Both the position numbers and the translations under genes were made by a program. A DNA stretch of 64,000 nucleotides from Mesaphorura yosii (Eukaryota; Arthropoda; Collembola; Poduromorpha; Tullbergiidae), in assembly GCA_009869945.1 (NCBI GenBank), contig WIXG01000127.1:124001-188000 (forward strand). Direction: 5' to 3'. The notes under the pieces are model-generated. The model saw only the letters and a list, made by a program, of their open reading frames with translations. It was not told where the DNA came from and ran no database searches. Shown here in pieces: positions 21,170 to 60,200 of the stretch (its first letter is position 1; each line of letters starts with the position of its first letter).

Positions 21170-21220
21170 ATGTACCCGTCAGCAATGAATGCAGCAGCAG
21201 CAGCCGCTGCTCGTCATCCG
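21170..21220 (+). CDS. gro: groucho exon 1 (coding part)
   Basis: Seventeen codons starting MYPSAMN, followed by a run of seven alanines and ARHP-like residues. The exon ends in phase 0 at a GTAAAT donor. The Ala run is coded by GCA/GCC/GCT repeats. Confidence 0.85.
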
Positions 21221-24200: not shown

Positions 24201-27200
24201 CCGCATTAGCCGAGGCATGCTTCTCGTTCTATTTAACTAATATTTGTCTCTTTTGACATTTCACAGGGTCCACCACAACCTGGACAACCATTCAAGTTCA
24301 CGGTTGGAGAGAATTGTGATAGGATCAAAGAAGAATTCAATTTCCTCCAAGCTCAGTATCACAAGTAAGTTCTCATCATAGTACGTTAAGACTACGTTGG
24401 GTTCTCAACTTGGCACATATTGAACTACTAGAACTAGTGATGTCCCGAATAAATAAAAAATAATTTCGCATACGCCAAAATGGCAATTGCGCGAAGCAGT
24501 TTATTTTTGTAAGCTTATGATTTATTAAATAAAATTACTCGACATGTTCGCGCTGTCATACTGTAGTTGAGTACTTTCGCCTTAAAAAGAAGTGTGGGTG
24601 TTAAAATTAGTTGCAATTGGACAAACCTTTCTGAATTATTGTGGCAATAACTGGCAAATGACTTACATCGTGATCACGACTCTTCAAGGTAAACTACTGA
24701 CGATGACGACCGCTTTTGGCAAGAATGACAGAACACGATACGCACTGACATAGAACGGACTGTGACAGAAGCACGACCATGTTGAATGTTTGATACGTAT
24801 TGAGAGATAGCCCATAGTTAGTATTTAATTGTTTATTGCAAGACGCGACGCAAAAAGTAACCGAGTAATTTTTTGCCTTACAAGCGAAAGTGATAATGGG
24901 TTTAAATCATCACGATTTTGACATGTTTCTTTGTTTCAATTTATTTAGTCTATCCGAACTCAAGATTGTTTCCCATTTCTGTACATGAATCATACTAAAT
25001 TTTGTACATTGACAGAGAAGTATGTACTGAGACTCAAGTTAAGCAATGATCAAGCGAAATCTGGCGAGAGGAGATTGTGTCGCTTGATAACAGACGCGGA
25101 CGTATAAATCAACTTTATTTCCCCTGGCACAAAAATTAAAAGACATGCTAATTTTTTAATTTATTGCGTTAAAACGGGTACGTCTATTTTGTCTACGAGA
25201 AGATGACAGATGATGAAACATTTCAATCTTTTTGTAAAAGTGGCAAAATATTTTTTGCTCGTTTCTGCTGTTCTTGTTCTCGCTGACGTTTTAAAGTAAT
25301 CAAGTTTCTGAAATGTACATTTTTACGTTAATTTTGAAGTCTTGCATTTCGTGTTTGTGTCTCCATTCTTCCACGATGAAGTTAAGTTATCGAGTCTGGT
25401 GACGGTGGCGTCAAGTCATCTACGGATCTTGAAAATCAGGTTCAACAGTCACTCTGAAATGTCTAATCTTTAAGAAATTTTATGTGTCATTATAATGCTA
25501 GTAATTATACAGTTCACTCTGCAAAGTGAGAATCGCGTCGCGTGAGCTCATGAATACAAAAATTAAATCGTCTTGGTCGTAAAATGCCAAATTACTTAAT
25601 AAGAGAAGGCTTTGGAAATTGAGAATAAATATTTTATGGCATAATCATAATTACGACCTCCGGTAACGCCGATCCTTATATCGTGTCACTCGTCTCTCAA
25701 AATCTCTGCAAATGTATGCAAACACTGCCAATGTAAAAATCACGTTTCTAATTGTACGTTCAGGAGACAAATTTGTATTTTGGCGTGTGTATACACTACG
25801 TGCTTGGAGCTTGGCCAAAGCTGCAGTTGTAACTGACAACAGGATTTGAATTTTGAGTGCGATTCTTCCATATAAAGACGAAGTTAATATTTTTAGTATT
25901 GCTGTATCAATAAATAACACAGATTGTAAAGAATGTAGCAGACTTGAGTCCCGATGGCCGAACCAAAATTGTCAAGTCATTTTTCTCGGTAAGAATGTAC
26001 TATCGCCCCAAGAACTGTGTACAATTCAATTATTTGAGAAGTCAAATGAAATACGATTTGGCCTTTAGTATTTAGCATGTGATTCATTTGTTGTACCTTG
26101 CATTTGATGTTTTGATTGCATTATTAATGAGTCGCATAGTGTTAAAAGAAAGTACAACTTATAATTGTATCTTTCAGAAATGAAGAGCTTAAGGCGTGGC
26201 TGTTATGTCTTTAGTTCTTTGAAGGTGATTAGATATTGTTGTTAGCATCTTCTGCGTGTCTGCTCACATAAGTGAATTGTTGGACATGCTGCACCTGTAT
26301 TGCAACCCCTTGTTTGTGGACTTGTGAAGATGATGATAATTTTAAAGCATTTACCGGACGCAGCAGAAGAATGGTATTATAAATGGCCATGCCTAATTGT
26401 AACTGTATACAGTACATAAAAGTCCACATCTAGAATGATCTCGTTGATCTTGATTATAGCTCGGTATTTGTTTTTGGTGAGCAACACGATAAGAAGTCAG
26501 TCGTTGATTCATCACCAACCACTAGTCTTCCCATCACATCATCGTGCATCGCAGCTAAATATAAAACATGCCTTCAAAATTCCTTTAATGATCAGGGAAT
26601 TAAAATCACGTCTGTAATCTCTACAGTGCGTGTAGAATGGCCCTACAAAGGTTGTCGCGTTCAATCAGATTACCGCACCGTCAATATTTTAACACTACGA
26701 CTACTCGGAGATTGTTTTTGCTCCTTTTGATTTGAATCCTGAGCTTCTCTCTTAATTTGTATATCAATGACCCAATTCATCTCGTGAAAGTGTCGACGAG
26801 TCTCTGTTTAAACGATTAACTGTTCTAGTCTGTCGCTGCCTCCTCATCTCACAACTCATGCAAAGTTTACTTCCACTTGGCTGAACCTTATCCCTCGCCT
26901 CGTGCCCGGCTGATGCGGAGCAGTACACATCAAGTGTGTAAACATGATAAATTATTCATGAGCGAATGTCTTGCCTCCTCGCGCTGAGCGTGAGTGTCCC
27001 AAACCGTTACTTGTTCCGTAATTATTCTGAAGGCACTTTTTCTCTCTGTCTGTATAATTTGCGCAAGCAACCATAACTAATGATAATTATTTGTACATGA
27101 GAGAATTTGCTTCTTTACTTGGTTTGTGCACTGTTGCCTGTCTGCCTGCATATTTCTGTTTCTACTTGCCGAAGCATAAAATTGCATTAAAAGGTTCATC

Positions 27201-33200: not shown

Positions 33201-36200
33201 ATATATTCAAGTTTATGGATCCTCCTGCCGGTTTTTGCTCATTGTGAGCTTTCTCGTCGGCTTTTTATTCCAACTTTGCAAGTCATTGAATTACGACTTG
33301 GGACATGAGACGAAAGTGAAAAGAATGTTGATGTTGATGAGTTGCGAACGGAATTTACTTTCAATTGACTTGAGGCGACTTTTACGTGATGCTAGGTGAC
33401 GGACAATATGCTTAGAATATACAACATCGTAATATTCGTAGTGCTCTCATTTACGATGATCTCTATTTCTGTCTCTTTGCTCTTTACAGCTTGAAATTAG
33501 AATGCGAAAAGTTGGCTAGTGAAAAGATTGAGATTCAGCGGCATTATGTAATGGTGAGTGGTGACTCTTTCTTTTCTTTCTCCTTACACTCTCAATTCTT
33601 TCTTTGCACTGCACGCTTTTGCCTTTGCCTGCTTTTCTACTGCATTGCTGAACATTTTGTAACTCCGCTTGCACTTGTCCTGAAGGCTTTCTAATTAAAT
33701 GCGTTATGACTCCGCGCCTTGCCCCTCCTCAGTGGCATTGGCACCAAAAACAAAAATTAATTATCCGTATCCACGCTTACGCTTTGTTTAAAGTAAGACG
33801 CCTTAGCCAAGTGTATTAACTCGTAATTACACATAATTTGATTCCGGAGATTATACTTTTGTTCGCGAGCATGTTATAATTATAAGCCTTAGTAATGACA
33901 TTTCAAGACGAGAGGATTTATTCCGGATCATAAAAAACTCAGCTGCAGCCAACCAGCAACAAAGCAACAGCGTTACCAGAATTAAAAACACTGTGGCATT
34001 CTTCGTTTCTGTGCGATAATAACAGCCAGCGAAACTACTTAACCGAATAAAATTAATGGTTGCAGCCACAGCCAGCCACATGCGTGGCTTAGCACGCCAT
34101 AATGTTGGTTATAAATAAACCGAGCGTGCTTTTTACTCCGCACCGTATCCGAGATGGTATCAAACGATGAATAATCACGAAAGACGAAGAAGATGTGTGA
34201 AACTTAACTTGAGTTGTCAAGAACAAAAACGCGCACATAAATAAAAGGCTTTTTCATGCATGATATGCGTGCGAAGAACAATGAGACTGGGAATGATGAT
34301 CCTTACGTGCCTGCACGGAGGATTCCTGCACGGCGTCGGCTACGCTGAGCACATGTTTGAGATTTTATTTGTAGATTATAATGGGGATGATTGTATGATA
34401 ATACAAAAATTAAGAAAAATGCAACCAAGCGTGAAGAAGATTGTAAGGGCGAAGAATTAAGGAGAGACGAGCGTAAAGTATTTCAAGTCAGGATCAAGAT
34501 TATGGTATTATGGTTATGGTTACGAAACGACGCGACGACGGAGAGAATGTTACGCGATCCAAGGTCTTAACGGGCAGACCAAAGAGGAGTTCATTTAACG
34601 CACAAAGTGTTTTCGTTCGTTTACACGCACGACTTTCCTCTTTAAAACAGGCGTCAAATCTTCACTGCTGCCTGCTGTTGCTGGCCGTACTCTTGTGTGT
34701 GGCATTTCGTTTTGGTCCAACAACTCGCGACGATGATATTCTGTAATTTTCCTCTTTCGAGGGTAATCTGTTGAGGTTAAATAACAAATACCACTACTCA
34801 TCCGAGAAATCGTAACACATGAAGCGCTCTTTTGTGCGAAAGCATTTGCCACGGCTTTTGCGAGTCGAGTTCGGGCGCAGGAATGTCTGAACTTGTTATA
34901 ACGCTTAACGAGTCAAAATATCATTGTTAACTCAAAAAATCAAGAGTCACGATTTTCTTTCAGGAGAGGCAATTGAATAAGATTTCTTGTTGCTTTGTGC
35001 ACTTGAGATGGAATTTAGGAAGCCAATTGAAGCACATTCGAATTCGTAAGCGGTCCAACCTAAGCGCTGTGATGATTATCTTGAATTCGAAGATGCGATG
35101 CGATACGATGAAGCAAACAGTAATAAGGTGAAGGTGAACTTTCAACTACTCTTCTTCTTGCTCTCTCCTCAAAGATTACGCTCAGTTTTCAACAAAGACA
35201 GATTAATGGACCAACTTTGTTACTTCGCTCTGACGCCATGGAAAGTCGCCTATCGCGTTGAGTGGACGCGACTAACCTTTTAGTCGAGAGGACACAATTT
35301 GATCAGACCCAGGACAAGTTGTGATCTGACAACATTGTAACGATGCTGTTTGCTGGGTAGGGAGGCATTTAAGATATGAAGTTATTCTTGGTATTCCTCA
35401 AGGGTGGTCTGCTCTGCCATGGCTTACACTTTTTTCGTGTAATTTTTCATCATCATCATCTTAGGCCCGTTGATTGTACTTGTTCTTGTATTGCAGGAGA
35501 GCAGTAGTTTAATACTTGTTGAACCATAAACACATCATAACAACAATGATATAAAATATGTATTGTTGAGGCTCAGCATTAGCCTGCCTGCCTGTCTCTG
35601 TTCGGTCTCGAGCAAGTAACCTGATACTGAAAACATGTTTTCTCGTATCTAGGAGATTAGATGCTTTAAAATGTCGTTGTTCTGTACTTGTGTAAAACAT
35701 TTCAATGTTAAATTGTAAATTAACTTGAAAAAGAGTACAAGAGCAAAATATTCCCAAGAGGCAACCAAAATGAAAAGTTCAACTCTTTGAGAGCTAAACC
35801 ATGTTCTCTTTGTTGTACAGCGATACAGGAAAAATGTAGTACGAGCCCTACAATAGTGCAACTGTGGACGGTCGTTACCATTCCAAGCACAGGGCAGAGC
35901 AGTGTCCTAATGTGATGTGATAACGATCATGGCTATAAACTAATTGTAATCAATCAAGTTAATGCACTCGAGCAACACAACCACGCAATTTAATGGATGT
36001 GGATCCCACTTTTTGTAAAAACAAGTCTCACAATGAGAATGGCAAAGGCAATGCGCAATTCACACAATTTAAAAGGCGGAGATCTGCCACGCCGTCGTGG
36101 TAGATTTTATGGGCTGATGACTTTTAGTAATGAAAGGAGCATTATCTATTAGGATTGAATGGATTACATGCAGAATGATTATAGTCCGAGATTGACGATG

Positions 36201-39200
36201 CGATAAGTGTGAATCAACAATGTATCTTGTATCACTTGCGTTCAGTGTTAATGTAAATAACAATTGAATGATTTTTAAGTAGTGGATACGACGTACGGGC
36301 ATAATTGTTTTCGATCAGGTGAGTGAGCATTGTGCACTGAGTTTTTGTTGTAGCGATCGTTGCAGTCGCGAAGTTTATAATTCATTGCAGGCACTCGCAT
36401 TGTATTGTAATCACATTATTATATATGCACGTCATGTTAACCGGTGTATGACTTGACTGAACGTGAACGTGCGGTATTGATGACTTTTAACCAATTTTAA
36501 TTGCGTGCTGTGGCAGTGGCAAGGTTCGCCTCACTTCACACAGAGGAATGTTGCTCATTCAACGTTAAATCCTAAAGCAGGTTGTGGCACTTTAAGTGCA
36601 ATTGATTTTTCTTCGTTCTGCGGAAATGAATTCCAGGCTCACATTCGCATTCGTGATTCAGGTATTTTCACTTTCGACGTAAAAAAGAAGCCCGCAACGC
36701 AGGCAACACAAAAAATACTTTTTCAAGCATGACATAATAATAATTCATTAAATTATAATGGAAATGACTCTCGAATGACTGTGTATAATGTTGGCACGTA
36801 ATGAAACGCGTTAGTTGTGGAATGAAATTAATGACCGAGAGTCGGGATCAAGTCAGGACCTTGAGAGCCGCCGCGTCGGGAGAAAGAACGAGTTGAGTGC
36901 GTGGAAAAAACACGAGAGGAGGTTTCCTCTTTAATAGTTTTGTAATTAGTCATGAAAGAGTTGAAATAAGGTTCTTTCTACTATAAAACCCATTAATGCT
37001 CATGTTTACGATGCATTACATGCATTGTTCTGCTCTGCGCTTTGATGCATGTCGGCGTCTTTTTCGCCGGCTCCTCTTCGAGAGCGTGAGGAGTGAACGA
37101 ATGCGGTCGTCGAGTACGGCGACTGAGAATAATGGTTATTTGTAGTGGGAAAATGTGCAAGATAAATTATCAAGATAGCTGCGTACATTTAACATGTATA
37201 ATTATTCTGACATTCGTGTAATTTCATTCGAAAGCAATGCCCCAATGTATCAGGTGGGTAAACAGAAAACGGTCATTATTTAATTTACATGAATCATAAT
37301 GGCCTATTCGGCGGAGTTGCAGGTTAATGTGAGAACAGTGCAGTAATTAATTAATCAACTAATTATGGTTGAATACAGGAAGAAGTTATTAGTGTCAATA
37401 TGTGCCAATTGAGATACTCGTGTCAATGCAGTTCATTTTATCTCTGTATTCGTATTGCTCATTGTCCATTTTTGTTCTAGCTTGAAAGTTGAGTGTGAGA
37501 AAATGGTTCAAGAGAAGGCCGAGATGCAGAGACATTATGTCATGGTGAGTAAAGCTGGAAGTGACGCAGGCATTATTGCCACCACTCGATCCACAGCTCT
37601 TCCACATTTTCATCCTTCCTTTACTTGCGAACTTTACGCTTTACCTCTTTCATCAACTCTGTAAAATTATCGAATTCCTTATTTCGCAATCTCGTCGAAT
37701 TAAATTCTTCAGTCTTGACCACGAATATTCAGCAAGATCTCCGAGCAAACTGATAAAGGTTGGCTTTGTTGGCGTTGGCAGTTGTGGTTGTACTTTTAAT
37801 GTGGCAGTGCAGTTGTCTTGTACAAATCTGCGTAGTAAATATGTCAACTTAAAAATAAAATGTAAACAAAATGAGCGTTTCTTCTTTTCCCAACTTGAAG
37901 ACTGCTGTAAATTGCAGCAAGAGTCACAACATATTTTGTGAAACAAATCCCAGTCAAACTAAAACCAGAAAAAATGCAGCAACAGAAACGACGACTTCTT
38001 TTTATCACTTCCCTTCCATTTTACTCGCTTTTTACGTCTTTTTCTTGGCACGTTATGAAAGAAGTTTTGTGTGCATGTGTTTATGAGTCCTTTGTCGTGC
38101 TGCTGGCTAGTGAGATTGTGTTACATGATCATTTGCCGATTCCGTCGTCGTGTGTAGGTTTCTAAAGTACAATAGCAGAGATTCGTACACGCGCCCGCGT
38201 GCACATCGACTTTGCACTTGCTCTGTTCATTGTACACTGCGCTTCTGTAATAATAATTTAACGATGATGAGCACAATGACAAAACAAAGGATAAAGAATC
38301 CAGAATAAATCCTGCCTTCTGACTCACATTCCAACTCTAATTTAGTAAACATTTTATGCCCCTTTTTCTCGACATTCTTCATCTGAATAAACACAAACAG
38401 CCAACGCATTGCGAGATAATCCCGGTACCCGGTACGAGAACAAGAAGTAATGAAGAGAGTATTTGTGAAAGTGAGCAAGTGTGAATGGGAAAGATAACCA
38501 CGGAAAATATGGTTTGTGTTGGCAGCAACTCAAAAAATCCCATATTTTTATTTGATATTTCTGGCTGCCGTTACTCGAATAAAGTTGTAGCATATGTGCA
38601 ACTCATTTATTCGCTCAGTCGCAGCGTATAAATTATGTGTACTTTTATGGCAACATGACAGGACACGAGAGACGGAATTCCGCATCCTTTCGTCTGCCTC
38701 TCATTCCAAGATTTCTAATTCAAGATTTATAGCACACTCGCTGTTCGTCTCGCTTTGCGCCTACCAAATAAAACGCGATGCTTAATAGGCACAATGATGG
38801 AACATTTTATGGATCCTCAGCAGTTGATTAGATTAGAGTATTCCTGGGCTCATTAAATGTGTCACCACATTCCTTTTCCCTGTTGCGTTCATTTTAAGAA
38901 ATGGTTCATCTCAAAGTTATTTGCTTATACTTCAGCCAAGTCGTAACTAGTGAAAGTATGGAAAGAGCTAAGTCAAAAGTGAGTTGGAATTGCCTAATTT
39001 ACCCACGAGTTAAGTCTCGTTGGTCGTTCGCATATCCGAAAGACGTGATGATTAACACTTTAAAGTTATCTCCCTTTCCCTTCCGTCTCGCTTCTAACCA
39101 AAGCCAACAGTCTCTTTATTCTTAATGACGCAAACGCTACTCCAGTTTGAACTGTTACTTCGCTACGCTCTCTGTACAGACAAATGCCAAATCCGCTGGT

Positions 39201-42200
39201 TCATATTTTCTTTGCACAATCATCATAAATGCTTGTGTAAACTATTTACTTTTGCACGACTCTCCTGAATTTTTACCAGCGTTCACATTTGCATGTAACT
39301 CGTACGCCTGTGACCGTATCGAATCATTACACTCTGCACACTGTTTACCCTCATTATATTTGCACAGGCTTCGTATTCAGCCGTCGCGTTTTATGACCAA
39401 GTGTTGCAGTCTGAGCGTCATTGCCTACTCGTAGTTAATTTTTTCATACGATTGCTTTTATTTACTGAAGTCACTCTTTAAATACATTCTAGTTTTATTA
39501 TCGTTCTGCTACTGACTGACTGACTGGCTGCTGTGTTTTGTGCATCTCAATAATGGCCCCTCTGTACTTTACTGTTCGTTCGTCCTCTATTTATATTTAA
39601 TGAATGTAAATTTTATTATCTTTCTGGCGAGGCAGTTGTTTGCTTTCATTCCGAATCTGTTTTGCCTTGTGTACACTATAAAAATGTTTAATTTATCAGG
39701 TTAAATATTTACTTTGTCATTTACTACACGTTGAAATGTATGACCGACAGACTGCATTGGAGCGTTCGAGTTCGGTAGCAGCGACAGGATTTAACGGGCC
39801 AAAATACTGTGCGCATTGTTATTTTATTATGCCACATTTCTCGCTCTGTGTTCGTATTTGTGTTTGTACAAGATTTATGGCACGGCGAGAGCATGACGGA
39901 CCAGTTGTTTAAATTGTATGCATGCAACGAACGATAAATGCTAAAATATGATAATTGTGAGTTTATGGATAATGCAAGGCAGGCTCTCCGTTTTTCTGTT
40001 TACGCATCCAGTTTATATGGAATGGAAATCGTTTTTGTTCACTCACATCACGCGTGGAATACATGATTAGATTTTAAATACGTTGGAGACGTTCTGAGCT
40101 GAGACTAACTTTGTGTCCATATTTGACCTGGCCAGTGTGGCCAGATCCCGTCATAGACACTCTCGCAATAAGCTTTTTGGAAAGTTCTGGCAGAAGGTGT
40201 AAAAATCGCAGCAAAACTTTCGCTCCCAGAAAATTAACTCGCGACTCAGCTTGAAGTTCGCATAATTCAAAATTCACTTCTGCTGAACACTCTCATGCGA
40301 GTCCGCGTACAGTGTGGAAAGTGGTTTCTAGCAGAAGGAAGTTAACATTGACACCATTTGCGGCTGTGGCTTTTAAGCCGACAGGAATCCCTTCTATTCA
40401 TTTTCTGATCCTTATTTGGTGTGGCGGTTGAGCACGTGTAGGAAATCTGAACCACTTATTTTACTCTGTCGGAACCCGACTTCGATGCTTTGACTCCATG
40501 CGTACTGGTGCGGGTGCTCTCATTTGACTTGATAATTAATTAATGAATATCTCTTCCTTGCTTTGTGCTTCCTGACTGGCTTGCCTTGCTCTTTCCGCTA
40601 CTAGATAATGAATTTGTAATGTGTTCCCTCACTTGTGCCTTGCAGACTTTCACTTTCACATGCTTTCTCTACACTTTCACTTTACTCGTTTTGTTGTGTG
40701 CTAAGTCTAATGTAATTATTGATTCTGTTTCAGTATTACGAAATGTCGTATGGACTCAATGTGGAAATGCACAAACAGGTAAGTTCATTTTTTGTCATTA
40801 ATGAGTATTAATTCCATTGACCAAAAACTAGCACTCAAAATATAAGGAGTGCGCAATTCCCTTTGGTCCATGTTCATGTTCAGCTAGTGGAGAAATGGAA
40901 GAGTAACGTAGGTGAAACATTTGGCGAAGAGGTGGAATAATTATGCGTAAGCAGCACGCGAGCACTGATCTAAGAGGAGCATGAAAAGTTACCAATTGCT
41001 GTGGTAAATTGTCAAGAATGGTTCTACTGCATATTGTCACTTCAAGGTTTCGTGCGACATGCCTTGTTTTGAAGTTTTACCTTAATTGCAATAAAATAAT
41101 TACAAAATTACACGCTCGACTAAAATATTAAAATCCAATTGTTGCTAAAAATGTACAGTACTTTGAACACCAGTATTTGTTTTGACTAATTTCGTGCAAG
41201 ACTCGTACAATAGTAAGCATTCAAAACCATCACACACGAGCACGGCCAAAGTTAGTCTCATTCGCATTCCGTGTTGTGTAAAGTTTGAGTGATTGATGTG
41301 CATATTTCATGAAGCCGCTGTCCTACAACTTACATAACGTGTCTGCATGGCATGACAAGAGTTAGAATTTGCGTGCTTTGAAACTCCTCAATTACCGTGT
41401 GTTGACCCGACCGACGGAATCTAATATTCAATAGTGCTAAATTCGACTATCGTATATTGAGCTGCGAGCTGGTGAAATGATTGGCTCGTCCTGTCCAGCA
41501 GGCAACCCATTGATTCAATTTATTTAATTAACTTTTGCTGAAATTCGTTTATCGGCGATTGAATTAAGACTTCTGTGTCCAAAACCAGTGCATGATGCAC
41601 GAAATTATTCATGCAGACGAAATGCGGAGACCTGACAGCGCTCCGGTGTGAAACTTCTCCTTCGAGCATGCAACATGTTTTGAACCCCGCAAACAACGCC
41701 GAGGAAAGGATTTGTTCGCTCCTGCTGCTACTTCCGTCGATAAGGAGGGCAAGAAAAGACCAGGAAAGGGAAAAGTGAAGCATGCATTTGGAGAAGTGAG
41801 AAACAGTGGCTTTCATGTGGCTTTTTATGCTCGGTGAACGCGAGTTCATTTCATGTCATAAACTTTCCCTTCATCTGTTTTCTCTTGAAAGATTTTCTCG
41901 CTCTTGTCTTTTCCTCTTCTCTGTCGGTTCCCCGACTGACTGTTTGCGTCGCGTGAGTCTGCGGTACGCGTGTCTGGTTGAATTCCTCCAGTAACTGGTG
42001 CGGGGGAAATGGAATATTTATACGTGATGCGATGGTTTCCAAAGTGTCAAAGAAAAGCCTCAGACTCAACCAAATAGAAAAAGTTTAGACAGCACTAGAT
42101 TTGAACTTTTTCTGCTCGGCTAACTTGCACCGCGCATATCCCTTTATCTTGATCTCGTGTTCTTCACTGTTGGCCTTTCGGTAGTTCGTGCCGGAATCTA

Positions 42201-45200: not shown

Positions 45201-48200
45201 GTTGGAAACGTGCTTGAGTGTATCCGTGAATGATCCATGAAAAGAAGGGAAACAAGAAAAGATTCGTTTTTACAGTACACTGTTTAGAGCCGCCGCCCTC
45301 CTTCACGCCATGCCATTTCTGAGTGATCAAAACTAATCGTGTGTCAATGGGAAATCAATACTCGTGTAGAAGAGGCCCCGTTCAAGTTCATTTTTTATGC
45401 TATTTACCAGTCTAACAGCCGACTTGCATTCAAGTCCGGGCAAATTCAATCCCATAATAGCCGTCGTATTTTCTCAGGCTTCAAAAACCATTACATTTTC
45501 TATGGTTTAACGATAGTCATAATAATAACCCATTCCAAGATTTCCCCTTCTCAAGCCTCCGCCGCATTTGCCACGCTGCATTGCAGACAGACGCAAGACA
45601 CTCGTCAGGTTGGCAATTCCTTGTCGTGCTCGCTCGCTCTTTTTACTGCGCCCCATTCAAGTAAAGCGTGTGTGGATGATGTAATAAAATTCCTACACAT
45701 TTTCACGATTTTCACTTTTTTGCCACTTGACGGCCTCCTTCTCCTTGAGCATCACATTGAGCAGAATAACTTTTATTGTTATTGGTAATTGTGAAACACC
45801 CTCGGATTCGCATTCGCACCCGTCATGCTAAGCAAAAGCTGTAAAATTATGCTCACTTTTGCGACGGGCTGCCGGGTCCGAATTGCCTTCGACTTCTGGT
45901 TTTAGGGCTCGTAAACATAATTTTTGTCTATTGTGTATGCTGAATATGAGAACGGAAGTACCCGCACAAAGAGCTTATTGCCCAATATAATTTTATGGTT
46001 CTTTATATGTGCCAATGAGTAAAACGAGAAGTTCTTGAACTGTGGGCCTAAAGCACCTGTCCAGGATTTGGAGAGTGCCAATGATAGCTTTTAATTTGAA
46101 TTACTTGAGCATAAACACAAATTACACTTATGTCACGTAAGAATGCTTACAATCGTACTGGTCACACAATTGCATCATTTGAAATTGAAGTTAGCAGTAA
46201 AGCATGAAAATATTATGGTCGAGAAGCAGTCATTCAATTTTCCACCTAGAGTCTAGAGTTCTTCGTCACTCCTAGATGAATATGCGACTTTAAGTAGGCA
46301 TCCTATGCCTCCAGATGGACACCCACTCGATTCAAAAATTCTCCGGTAAAGTGAAGCTAACACGAATGAAAACTTCATACATTTTTAATGATTGCTAAAA
46401 GTGCGAGTTCTTGTTCTTTTTCTCCCAAGGTGCACAAATAAAGACATCGGGAATCTCGTTGGTGGATTGCTTTGTCTCTCCAAAATTGCATGGGGAGTTA
46501 AACTCCATTACGCTTTGCTGGGTAACCTTCAACAGGGAAACTTGAGGATTTTTGAGAAGATGGGTAAATAATTTGATTTAGAAAAGAAAGGCGAAGCAAG
46601 TTGAATTGACAAATGTCACCACGGAAGAAGAAGTATTAAATTAGTGATCGTGATTCTTAAAGTAGAGTGACATTTAAATTTTGTGAGGTAACTTGTCAAT
46701 GCCAATACCGAAGAAAATTTACAATACAATACTGTAGTGGTTTTGGATTATATACTTCGCAACTTCTAAATGCAGATGCTTTCATTATCGTCTCCAAATT
46801 CGGCTTCACCTGGTTGTGCTGAACGTATTTGCTCAAAGATGTTCAAATCCTCAGGATTAGAAGAAAGTTTGGCATGCAAATCCTACTGCAGAAAATACGC
46901 AATTTTGAGTCGGTTCCACTCATTCTATCTGTCCTTCCTTAAGTTGGTTGTAGTAATTCTATTCCAGAAATCGACGAAGTCTCCTTATTGGGCCAGTAAA
47001 CTCAAAGCAACGACAATTCAAGCAGTCCCTTTCTTTTTTCATTATTCTGTCACAGCTGGTGCTTTCTTCTCGCTCCGCCGTCGTCGTCGTCCTCATAATC
47101 ATCATCGTTGTATAGTGAATGTATTCCTTCCTCTAATCATATTCTTTGTGACTACGAAATTCGTCCCAAGATCGATTTTTATTCCCTGATTTTTCTCAAG
47201 GCATTTCATTCGTTCTTGGCGTCCCCTTCTCTGTCGCTTTTTATTCACTCGTTTGCCTTCAGCTTGTGAGAGTTTTGTACGCAGTCAGTTCACGCATAAC
47301 TTTCTCCAAGGAAGGGGAAAACAAGAGAGCACAAGCAGGCGGCAGCATCCTTTTATAATATTCTAGCACATTGAAATTTTTTCAAGTGAAAAAAGGGAAA
47401 TTTTCTCTTACTTTACATTTCTCGCTCTCTCTCTTCTTAAGATCTTAGTTTTTTCTCTTTATTAAGAAAGAGTTGAGGACAACTACTTATTTAGCATGCT
47501 ATGTCAAGTAGTCTCATTTTTATTCTCTTTGGATTCTTTACCAACTTTCTTCCTCTTAAGTTCCCAAAAGTTCTTTCGTTGCGCTGTTCCTTCCCCTCCG
47601 CTTTTTATTATTATTTCTTGTGTTTTCGTTCTTCAACTTATCCCTTTCAAGTCGCCCTCATTCAATATCCACACTTGACTTGCTCGTCGTGGGCTGACAT
47701 GTTTCCAACTGCAGACTTTCATAGCTTCACCATCACCTTATTAAATATAAAACGCAAGGAAGCGGAGGCAAGTAAACTGGTGGGACGAAGAAAGAAAGGA
47801 TTTTAAAAGTATGAGAAAAAGTTTTAATACATTTGCCGTGCCTCTCCTTTCATAAATACATAATTTCTTAGACATTGTGCACTAACAAGGGGCATACTTC
47901 AGCTGCGTATTGAACCCAAAGTCACCACCTCACTTTGGGCCCCGGATTGCAGAAGTGATCAAGAAAAACACACCACCGAATATATTCGTGACGTATACAA
48001 AATCCGGAAAGCTCAATAAGCGAATCATGAGGGAATGGGTTGAGGAATGCTTATTTCCGCTAGTAACAGAAAAGCCTGTACTGCTCCTGGATTCGTGGAC
48101 GGGCCAACAAGATAACACTTCAGTCTGGTTTTAGATAATTGGAAAAGACTCTAGATCCCCCCCCCCAAAAAAAACCGCCATAAAATGAAAAATATTCATT

Positions 48201-54200: not shown

Positions 54201-57200
54201 ATTGCATGCAAAGAGAATACAAACTTTCTGGCAATTTCCCTCATATCTTTCTTTAGAACAGTTCTTCGTGAATCAAGCGAACGTTGAATACAAATTCTTG
54301 CACGTTGTTGGAAAGCTGAAATTCGCATGCATTCATCCCATTCGTAATTTATTTCTGATTTGTGCTCCAGGAATTCATATTCCATATGAATACACTGCAC
54401 CGGCCATCAATCACAACTGCTTTCGCTTGACGACCCCGATTGTCCACTCATGTCTACGATACGAGCACTTGCAACCACAACACTCATTCTGCAGTGGTGC
54501 GTGATTTTCCATGTCACAGCTTCGTATAGTGTTCTATCAACATGCCGGTCGCCTGCCATTTACCAAACAACTCAAGCTCGTATGCTCATATAAATGATCA
54601 TGTTGTTATGTGCCTAATAATAATATGGTCTCCTCCGTCATCATCTGCTTTGTCATCTATCTCTCCTCTCTTTACTTTCCGTTTATTTATTTTTCTGGCA
54701 AAATAAAATAAAAAAACGTCTACGCGGCACGGCACAGCATGGCATGGCGCACAGGGGAAAAGTAGCAAGACAGAAAAGTACACATACAAATAAAATTCAA
54801 GTAAGCTACAGTGTTCAGTGCAAGCAAACCGTAAAGCAGCATGCTCTGTTTGCTCTGCAAATAGAGAGACAAGCAGCAGCGACATAGAAGAGTTTTTCTC
54901 TCTCCGCCAAGAACATATTGTTTTGCTTTCCATAACCTTAAAGACATCCCAGAATTGAGGAGATAAGGCAGAGCACGCATTTTGTGGAATTTTGTGTGCT
55001 TGCACTACGCTGGGCTGCGATGCAGTGTACACACAGTTAGTTGAGTTGAGTTTGTGTTTGGGGAAAAACTTGAGTAAATATTGACTCTTTACCACATCCA
55101 TCCATCGCGAGCATATTATGCTGCTCTAGGGCACTGAGCAAAGGCAGGCACAGGAGGATAAACCCCAAATGTTCTGTGTACACTGGACGCAAACGGAGCG
55201 ATAGGACAGCACAGAAAATTAAGCTGGGCTTCGCGAACGTGTACGGAATAATAGAAAACTACTTTGACATGTAAACCTGACCTAGCTGGTAGTACGCTCG
55301 TACTTCAGGAAAGAAATATTTGAAGAGCAACACTTAAATTCGGTTCGGTTTGTTTGCATGCACTAAACTTCTGCAATGCCAATGAAAACTCCACAACGCA
55401 CAACCCAAAGCAAGAACTCTCTTCTTGGGAATAATAATGTTGCACAGTTCCAATGTGTGCCCCCATGTCAACACCTGGCACATAGTATGTGACTCGTTGT
55501 CAGTATTTTGGCACATCTCGAAAAATTGCAATGAATTGACTGCCATGAAATTGTCATGAACAAGAACATGGAACAAAGGGATCAGCTCAGCGTGTGTTAT
55601 TTCTGTCTACATCGTAAAAATATTGCACTTGAATGAATCAATTTTAATGTATGCCTTTTTTCTGTTTTCAGACCGAGATTTCGAAACGACTCAATGCAAT
55701 TATTGCACAAATCCTTCCATTCTTATCGCAGGAGGTAAACTGTCATTAAATATTCCGTGCGAAATTAACTTATTATAATATTAATAGATTTCTGTCCAAG
55801 TGGCAATAAAATGCGATAATTTACGACACGACACCACATTTCTATGATTGCTTCGTCCATGCTAATTAGGCATTGTGTGATTCTCTTTCAGCATCAGCAA
55901 CAAGTGGCAACAGCGGTTGAGAGGGCGAAGCAAGTGACAATGACCGAGTTGAATGCAATCATCGGAGTAAGTACAAATTCTCTGACTAGTTTTTATATTT
56001 TAAGAAGGCATGTCATTTCATAATTTTTTGGTCGTGGCCGTGTCGTGGATGAATGCCACGCTGCGCTTATTTTTATGCTAATGCACGCTAAAATGTCATG
56101 CCGTGCTGTGCCGTGCTAATTTCACTCTGTTCTTTTGTGCATGAACTCGCAAAATTAAACTCCCTTTTTATTTGCACACTAAATTAGCATTTACATTTTG
56201 CATATCGAAAATATCGCATTGCGTGGCAATGACAAGGTTATATCTCGCTGCCTGAGTCATTAGCCTGCCTTCTCATGTGATGATTTTTTGCCGTGACAGT
56301 GGCGCCTGTTTTTCATTCAATTTGCAGTGTAATGTGATAAGTAAAAGATTCGCGAATTTGTGATGCGTAGCGAATTCTCAAAAGTGCCGTTGCCATTCTT
56401 TGCCGGTGCCATAATTCTATTAGGCGACTGAAGATAATGGACTCTTGATTATGTCGCACCTACTCAATTTGCATACTAATTACAAAGGCGTCTCGCCCGT
56501 AAGTCGGTGTTCTTTTATTGTCGAATTGTGTCAATGCTCTCTACTCTAATAAATAACATTCATTAAATTGTAATTGCGAGCCGACGAATCTTTTATTGTG
56601 AGTAATTAAGTTATTTTGCAAAGAGCGATGGACGGAGCAGAGCAGGCGACAATCCACTCAGGGAGGACAGACAATGCGAGGAATTCATAATATTTTACTT
56701 ACTTAATAATATTACCATGCTAATTGTTCAAGAAGCGAGCAGAGACAAGAGACGCGTCTTTTGTTATTCTTCCTTTGGTAGGAAGAGCTCAAAAGAATCT
56801 CTTCCTTTGTTTCCTGTCATAATTCCCCTGAGAAGTAACAACAATAAGAAATTAGTGAATGGAACCCGGTCTCAGTGTAGAGATTATCGGGCGGGCAGAC
56901 GATGTGCTCTCGCAAGTTGGAGCTCAAACTCAACCTTCCATGACCACAATATAAAGCCTTAAAAATATGTTCATAATAAAATGATGATTCTGTTGCTCTG
57001 TCTTGGGTAATAACAATAAGTCTTCTCATAATAATGTAATCATCATCACCCCTTCTTACTCTGGCGTACAGACTGGGGAGTATTATGTTTAAAGCCTTTT
57101 AGGAACATTTACCATGCTTGTATTGCATTGGTTATCAGCTCTTCACATTAATGCCCGCCCGCTAGCTCGCCTTTTGTTCATTCAGGAGATCCTCTCAGCC

Positions 57201-60200
57201 GTTGATACCTCATCGAGCACACAATGCACGTTCAAAATAATAACAGAGAGGTTTTGTATTATTTTAGGGCTTCAGTAACTGCACATCGCGTACGCTAGAC
57301 AGACACATTAGTCACACTCACTTCATTTTTAATCTCTCCGTGCTTCCTTACACACGAACTGCTCTTGAGCCTAAGCCCTTGCGATATTGCTATGCTGCGT
57401 GGAGGATCATTAAACCGAATCCCTTTTTATTACGGCAAATCGCAAGTGGCATCTGTCCGTGCGTGCCGAGCGTACGCGCATGTACATTTGTATTCACACT
57501 GACATTAAATTGGAATTATTGTTATGAATTTGATTACTAAGAGTCGGCGAGGTGAAAATAGGAATTAAACGCGGGATTAAAACCTCCAGGATGATACCAC
57601 AGCTTACTTGGGACACAGGGAAATTACAGGCTTGCAAATGGATTTATAAAATCATGCGTTTAATCTTTTACAGCCTTGCGTTATTAAATAAATCCTCGAA
57701 TTTCTATGACTTCCATTAGTAATAAAAATTTGCGTATAAACGACAGGCAGATAGACTACTGTTTTAATCTTGTGTCGTATTGGGGAGGATTTTCCCTGTG
57801 TCCGTTATCCTTTTTAAATTTGTTTGTGCTTCTGCGTGTGCGACATCCAATGCGGCTTACGGAAATCTTTCATTGAAATCTCTAGGTCCAGTTCAAACGT
57901 TATTGTCGTTAGCCTTTGTACCGCTTCGCGCACATTCACGCGAAGTGCGCTTGAAGGTGAGGCAGAGAAACCCCACAGAATTAAGCGCTCGAGGATAGGA
58001 TCATTATACACCATGGTGAAGGTGTTCAACCTGTGATTAAAAATCACGAACGTGCCCGAGTTGCGTAATGCTCACACGCATCAGGTTTCTTGTGCTCGGC
58101 TTCACTTTCACTGATTCCAGCTCCATGATCCGAAAACTAATTAAAAGTTTCTGCAGCAGCAGAAAAATTAAAGGGTTGGCTTGCTATGTGTTCTCTGTAG
58201 TAATTAGTATGCTATCATTGAGATGACTTTGTGGCATGCTCTAAGTGCATTGTTCAATTTTTAAGTTGTCTTGTTTCTTTCAGCAACAGCGGCCGGATCT
58301 CCCTCGCTTATTGGTTAGTAAACGGTTGAACTAGACCAAAAATCAACCTGATAATCTTCCACAGGGCTAAATGTGAATATTCTGTTTCCTTTCAGCAACA
58401 AATGCATGCACAGCAGTTGGGTCCAGCAGCCGCAGCTGCTGCGGCGGCAGCCTCCGGTCACCCTCCACTTCCAATGTTACCACACCCGGGACTCCCTGGT
58501 GCACCACTACCTCCATCCTCAGCTGCCTCACTACTAGGTTTAAGTGGATTAGGTGGTCCTCATCCGCTAGCAATCTTGAATGCTAAACACGATCTCCATC
58601 GAGATGAAAAACCATCAGGTCTGTATTTTTTCTCCTTTCCCGTTCTCTTTCGCCCGTCTTTTATTAGGCACTTGGACTTCATATAATATTATTCTATCGC
58701 TTATCTTAAATCTCCGGAACCCTCTCCCTGAATCTCGCTGTCTCCTCTTCCCACACGGCTCTCCTCTCGAGGAACTAGATGAAGAATAAGTGTCTTCCAA
58801 ATTCTTTATCTCCTCTTTAGTATTCTGCTCATGCCACTCCATTTTATACTGTTTGGCTGAATTATGTGGTAGACGCCGGGAGAAGGGTTCTTTCTTCTCC
58901 GTCAATATCTTGCTTTCCTACCATCATTAAATGCCAGGCGATGAGCAATGCCTTCGCTTGCATTGGAGCCTGACAGTATCATTGAGATTTTTCAATTTCT
59001 GTAATCCCATCAGGAAAGTCGGTCTGTTCTCGTTGTTCAGGCGTTCTTAGTTCATAACTTGTTGTGAGGATGCAACATGGATAAGGTCGGGTCGGCAGAG
59101 GCCTAAGGTCAAACTCATTTGCTGTGATCCGAGGTGTGAAAAAGAACGTCGAATTATGTGGGCGTTCGTAATCTTCCAATTATTACACCCCAGCACCAGT
59201 CCGTCAGTGCTAAATCCTTTCAGTTTAATGCTCACATCCATTCGCAACGATCTACGGTACAGCGAGAATTAATTTTACCTCCTCGTGTAGTAGTCCAAGT
59301 CATAGTTTTGTCTTTAAGCAGTAAGACTTCAGATTCCCTTGCAGACTCTGACCGCACACATTGCTCGCAAGAAATATTTGAGTGCTTACATTTGTATTGT
59401 TCGCCACACATTTGGGCGCAGCAAGCAAATAAACAACCGAGATGCCCAGATAAGATTAAGACGCGTAACAACAAAACAGGACGGGTTTCCATCCATTGAG
59501 AACAAGAACAAGAGGCGTCTTTCTTGCCCTTTCAAGTTCGGTTATCTTCAAGCAGCACTGCACTCCGACTGGATTCTTTTGTCTGCGATCTTCTGCTGAG
59601 CTGCGCTGGGCTGGTCTGATAATTTATGCTTCGGAATTAACTTCTGCTTTTCAATGAGCGTAATTTGGAATGAATGGTTCGCTTTCAACTTGTTTGTTCC
59701 CCACCCGTGGGTTTATTATTACGCACTTGGGTGTTTTTGTCTTGAACTTGAGCAGGGCTCGCTGGAAAGAAAGCCAGCAGAGAGAAAATTTATTCACAAA
59801 ACATTTATTCCCTGTGCATTTGGCCTGCCCAAGACTTGACTTGTCTGAGTTTAGGGTGTGGTTCTATTTAACATGTATTAAACTTGATCTTCGTGTAATA
59901 GGACTAGAACAAAAGAGCCTGGCTAATCTTTGGAGGTGTTACAAGTAACAGGCGAGCAAGGAATTTAAAACCGCAAACATGTGTACATGCTAGATGCACG
60001 GTGTACGTGTTTTTGTTTTAGTGAAATGTGTGCTGGTTGAAGTCTGCATTATTTAAACAGGTAATAATGGACTACCCTTTTTGGTTTGACTCCAACTTCA
60101 CCACAGCACACACTAAACTGGTGATAATTAACATTCACGTGAGCATTGACACAGGAATTAGTCAAGTCAAGTCAAAGTCAAGTAAATATAGCCTCGAAAT

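Follow-up and report, generated by a model that had tools for sequence, protein, structure and literature searches.

Two alternative copies of a Q-domain exon in a groucho gene of Mesaphorura yosii

Groucho is a co-repressor that serves many developmental repressors, and the stretch of its Q domain that corresponds to exon 3 is highly conserved. Here, we describe a groucho gene of the collembolan Mesaphorura yosii, designated gro1, in which this exon is present in two copies, 3a and 3b. The gene was found in a window of 64 kb, i.e., positions 124001-188000 of contig C127 (WIXG01000127.1) in an assembly of 93.0 Mb and 1127 contigs, and a second groucho gene (gro2) is located on contig C219; all coordinates are window positions unless C127, C219 or C2 is named. 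The evidence favours the view that exon 3 of gro1 was duplicated long ago and that a productive message would carry either 3a or 3b by mutually exclusive splicing, for which we estimate a probability of about 0.8. This is a new instance of a known exon arrangement, found where it would not be expected, in a highly conserved segment. Groucho is usually regarded as a general repressor of one fixed form; should both copies be used, its assembly region would be adjustable through splicing, and nature would have supplied two variants with which to probe the role of the coiled-coil residues that differ between them.

Two versions of one Q-domain segment

Exons 3a (33490-33553) and 3b (37481-37544) are both located on the plus strand, are each 64 nt long, start with C after AG and end in ATG followed by the donor GTGAGT, and each encodes N from a split codon plus 21 further residues. 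The original prediction had placed the four junctions at 24364, 33490/33553, 37481/37544 and 40734, and direct reading of the sequence gives the same coordinates. It is also correct that the two exons, separated by 3927 nt, share phase and consensus AG/GT sites and encode two versions of one 22-residue Q-domain segment, identical at 16 residues when the split codon is counted. Its further claim that they serve as alternative copies gains support from the equal phase and from frame arithmetic that permits one copy per productive message, and both the age of the pair and its retention favour use.

The likeness of 3a and 3b as exon 3 is beyond chance. A BLOSUM62 scan covered all 63-nt frames of the window on either strand, with gro2 exon 3 as the sole reference; 3a and 3b scored 95 and 89, compared with 29 for the next-best place. 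Scanning with the human peptide gave 98, 90 and 30, respectively, and with either copy as the reference the other reached 85, ahead of a runner-up at 27 or 29. The 22-residue peptides alone also matched the Pfam family TLE_N (PF03920, cut-off 32 bits), with 37.9 bits for 3a (E 2.6e-9) and 32.1 bits for 3b (E 1.6e-7). For exons 2-4 taken together the score was 126.3 bits with 3a and 119.4 bits with 3b, and this segment aligns to human TLE1 in the structures 4OM2 and 4OM3. By these matches, the gene in the window is a groucho with a TLE_N-type Q domain. The genome has 66 matches to Chitin_bind_4, as befits an arthropod, and none to 7tm_6, a hint at a non-insect that is no proof of absence.

PF03920 matched 12 places in the genome. 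Eleven are exons of gro1 or gro2, and the twelfth is a weak match on C2 (781112-781276, E 0.216, 18 bits) that lies outside both genes and is probably a chance coiled coil. Genome searches with each peptide plus exon 4 returned only 3a, 3b, gro2 exon 3 and exon 4 of both genes. Scanning showed no further conspicuous copy of exon 3, either in the window or in 41.5 kb of C219, where gro2 exon 3 reached 109 as a self-match and the next place 31, and the genome search gave none beyond the weak place on C2. In collections of genome and viral contigs that contain no animal genomes, 0 of 12 and 0 of 132 pattern matches, respectively, were confirmed as relatives.

Splice sites were scored using a generic matrix rather than one trained on M. 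yosii, against a background of 3624 GT sites and 3477 AG sites in the window. Both donors scored 9.9 (99th percentile of GT sites, 7.9), while the acceptors scored 7.3 for 3a and 3.6 for 3b (95th and 99th percentiles of AG sites, 2.3 and 5.0). For comparison, the acceptors of gro1 exons 4 and 6 scored 3.2 and 3.6.

Frame logic, age and alternative explanations

The exon length leaves a remainder of one on division by three. Either 3a alone or 3b alone leaves the frame open through exon 7. Inclusion of both would yield L-E-S and then, as the fourth codon of 3b, a stop that starts 9 nt into that exon and lies 52 nt upstream of the junction between 3b and exon 4. Skipping of both shifts the frame, with the first stop at codon 101 in exon 6. 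Since a single copy leaves the frame open, both together stop it and the absence of both shifts it, a productive gro1 message would hold exactly one copy, never both and never neither. Exclusion by crowding would call for fewer than 50 nt between donor and branch point, and exclusion by U2/U12 mismatch for AT-AC sites. GT-AG sites were found throughout and almost 4 kb lies between the copies, so neither incompatible site types nor crowding can enforce exclusion; this would fall to regulated choice, together with the elimination of faulty messages. Among 629 human clusters of mutually exclusive exons, a length that is not a multiple of three is reported for 377 (60%) and possible crowding for 57 (9%) (PMC5740500). 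The WebScipio predictor of such exons relies on length, frame and homology, with a default relative score of 0.15; 3a and 3b agree in all three features and have a relative score of 0.81. According to the same source (PMC3228551), 90 of 16180 exons not known as mutually exclusive (0.56%) share such features with a neighbour.

There are 19 differences between the 64-nt copies, distributed as 5, 3 and 11 over codon positions 1, 2 and 3, and seven codon changes are silent. Between gro1 and gro2, third positions differ at 14/25, 3/15, 12/21 and 14/25 in exons 2, 4, 5 and 6, respectively (43/86 in total), which is close to the 11/21 observed between 3a and 3b; judging from this similarity, the exon duplication is old. 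A recent duplication of exon 3 was considered and rejected, as the sequences that flank the copies, compared over 300 nt upstream and over 300 nt downstream, are not alike beyond shuffled sequences (49 and 40 of 200 shuffles, respectively, reach the observed score).

Whether 3b has been kept by selection was addressed with a clock simulation (60,000 pairs) in which 3a was the ancestor, the 3a line accepted 3% of protein changes and divergence was drawn from a flat range. Under free drift of 3b at the mutation rate of 3a, six or fewer amino-acid changes had probabilities of 0.0013, 0.0027 and 0.012 at 11, 9-13 and 7-13 third-position differences, respectively. Requiring in addition no stop and retained AG and GT reduced these values to 0.0004, 0.0009 and 0.004. 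First and second positions also differ less than third positions (Fisher P 0.0096 for 3a and 3b, 0.015 for 3b and gro2). A shuffle of the 19 substitutions (P 4e-5) was set aside in favour of the fairer clock simulation, because it loads every change onto one neutral copy.

Several results weigh against a used and selected 3b. The P values that count the splice sites and the open frame are inflated, since 3b was noticed through those very features. When 3a, 3b and gro2 exon 3 were placed on a star tree, a codon model that allows a short 3b branch did not reject a neutral 3b (2dl 1.77, P 0.18), although its power is poor because branch lengths ran to their bound. Five of the eight nucleotide changes unique to 3b fall at first or second codon positions, and its acceptor scores below that of 3a. 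The pyrimidine cluster described below as a candidate control site beside 3a is matched in density by a second place, and is thus unusual without being unique. On balance, 3b reads as kept but diverged, a judgement of modest power. The earlier claim that both copies are under selection thus holds for 3b under the clock, on amino-acid changes alone, and finds no support in the star-tree model.

The most serious competitor, although we consider it improbable, is that 3a alone is spliced and that 3b, a duplicate out of use or in decay, is intact only in appearance. Apart from the neutral model that was not rejected, it can draw on the weaker acceptor of 3b and on its greater distance from the human peptide, to which 3b is identical at 16/22 residues, 3a at 19/22 and gro2 at 21/22. 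It has to explain why, despite high synonymous divergence, 3b still has an open frame, intact splice sites at both ends and 16 of 22 residues in common with 3a, a degree of retention that free decay under the clock seldom yields even when amino acids alone are counted. A smaller chance is given to a poison exon, whereby inclusion of one copy beside the other would lower Groucho output via nonsense-mediated decay, the second protein form mattering little. The stop produced by double inclusion, 52 nt before the next junction, would suit such a role, but protein likeness, matching phase and the conserved QRHYVM end would be needless for a pure poison exon, and 3b has all of them.

Even more remote is an assembly artefact, in which the copies would be alleles or stray gro2-derived sequence brought together in one contig. 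The probable proximity of gro1 and gro2 and a break of the assembly at a repeat inside gro1 lend this idea some substance. Against it, the copies differ from each other at 19/64 nt and from the gro2 exon at 17 nt (3a) and 18 nt (3b), their flanks resemble each other no more than shuffles do, and a single exon 2 and a single exon 4 stand on either side of the pair.

Coiled-coil changes, candidate control and known systems

We tentatively take L44 of gro1 to be the counterpart of fly L38 and a core 'a' position. With L44 set at 'a', the six residue differences from 3a to 3b would occupy the heptad places L53V (c), L58M (a), A59V (b), S60Q (c), I63A (f) and I65M (a), and the net charge over K, R, D and E is the same for both copies. 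Two of the swapped residues (L58M and I65M) would thus be located on the inferred coiled-coil core and four elsewhere. The Q domain is described as a dimeric coiled coil that forms a head-to-head tetramer and mediates TCF binding (PMC7458405), and in fly Groucho the 38D/87D substitutions block self-association while 40D/89D do not (PMC3272004). The exon swap would yield two Q domains with six differences within one coiled-coil stretch. As the two core changes are mild and the other four lie outside the core, the swap may adjust the pairing of Groucho chains or their choice of partner repressors, rather than making or breaking the tetramer. The original prediction went further and proposed a tissue-regulated swap that would give one gene two co-repressor forms, which may be so. 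A bolder and rather doubtful extension is that the three Q-domain versions of the genome (gro1-3a, gro1-3b and gro2) would differ at the core and that splicing would thereby control an assembly code of this general co-repressor, with exon choice setting which chains co-assemble and which partners of the Q domain, TCF/LEF among them, are served.

With respect to control, a cluster of pyrimidine motifs (33554-33703, plus strand) adjoins the donor of 3a. In the 150 nt past the donor, 29 UCUU/CUUU-type motifs were counted for 3a, 1-18 for the seven other gro1 exons (12 for 3b and 18 for exon 7), and nine for gro2 exon 3. Over 6385 windows the motif count reaches 30 at two places, 33461 and 47401, the former covering the acceptor tract of 3a, exon 3a itself and the start of the cluster. 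The other (47401-47550), in the intron after gro1 exon 4, has an equal density of such motifs. PTB-type proteins bind such tracts, and both upstream and downstream sites have been linked with repression, the downstream ones also with enhancement (PMC3907290). The cluster is an after-the-fact lead to the control of the choice between 3a and 3b; with low confidence, a pyrimidine-binding splicing factor acting around 3a might set that choice. Control by intronic RNA pairing, as in clusters of the Dscam type, would show as docking and selector pairings that are conserved between species. In 8.4 kb of this one genome, 13 weak inverted pairs of 15-25 nt were detected and none was distinctive.

The pair resembles Dscam, Mhc, U2AF1 and the human clusters in being made of homologous, side-by-side exons of equal length and phase (PMC5740500). 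It also shares with tandem-duplicated, mutually exclusive exons in general that joint use breaks the frame and that the swapped segment lies within a folded helix (PMC5740500 and PMC5224494). It differs from these systems in its location in the groucho Q domain, and its exclusive splicing is predicted from the gene sequence. The Q domain of gro1 matches TLE_N and the solved Q domain of human TLE1, and the WD40 half matching gro1 is probably on C219. The human TLE1 structures and gro2 each have one version of residues 51-71, while gro1 has two alternatives. The statement that other animals have a single version accordingly stands for human TLE1 and gro2, the comparison being confined to these and to open-access papers. 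AES/GRG5 proteins are separate short TLE proteins without the WD40 half, whereas the gro1 case would be an exon swap in a long form. AES/GRG5 diversify Groucho function through its N-terminal half (PMC2997355), as the swap also would. No report of an alternative exon 3 in groucho was found among the titles and abstract openings of the papers listed in open-access literature searches, and database annotation of such arthropod isoforms is quite possible. The word 'groucho' is absent from the main texts of PMC5740500, PMC3228551 and PMC3923563.

Gene model and the second groucho gene

The remaining exons of gro1 are all on the plus strand. Exon 1 (21170-21220), predicted by a start-motif scan and in frame with exon 2, encodes 17 residues and ends in phase 0 at the donor GTAAAT. 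Exon 2 (24267-24364, 98 nt) contains the start of the Q domain and ends in phase 2 with CAA before GTAAGT. Exons 4 (40734-40778), 5 (55672-55734) and 6 (55892-55966) encode 15, 21 and 25 residues, respectively, and exon 7 (58396-58618) encodes a GP-like region and ends in CAG before GTCTGT, the least certain boundary of the model. No relative of the exon 7 region was found in PDB. Inspection and a WD40 search revealed no WD40 exon on C127, which stops at C127 position 192917.

On C219, gro2 is encoded on the plus strand, with an exon-1 candidate at 103413, a single and canonical exon 3 (107689-107752) followed by an 81-nt intron, and a WD40 set at 117233-118420. Using an approximate human TLE1 WD40 sequence as the query, two groucho-like WD40 sets were detected, both on C219. 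The second is on the minus strand (129755-126682) beside the contig end, where translations judged by eye contain further stretches resembling the Groucho middle region. The end of C127 (192798-192917) has an exact 120-nt overlap with the reverse-complemented end of C219. This overlap looks like a piece of a short repeat element whose ends read CAGGGTG/CACCCTG, and since the shared 120 nt are repeat-like, the join is likely but not proven. The minus-strand WD40 half probably belongs to gro1, and gro1 and gro2 are probably tail-to-tail neighbours across the contig break.

The WD40 proteins of the two genes are identical over the 230 residues compared. Their third positions differ at 76/230 over six segments, below the 43/86 of the other exons (Fisher P 0.006), and the divergence is patchy, from 4/40 to 12/16. 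Because the WD40 halves are less diverged and patchy, no single clear age can be assigned to the gene duplication, and local gene conversion may account for the pattern. At the other end of the window, an open frame of 285 codons (1-858), with no Pfam match at E 0.001, enters from upstream and is acidic in its first half.

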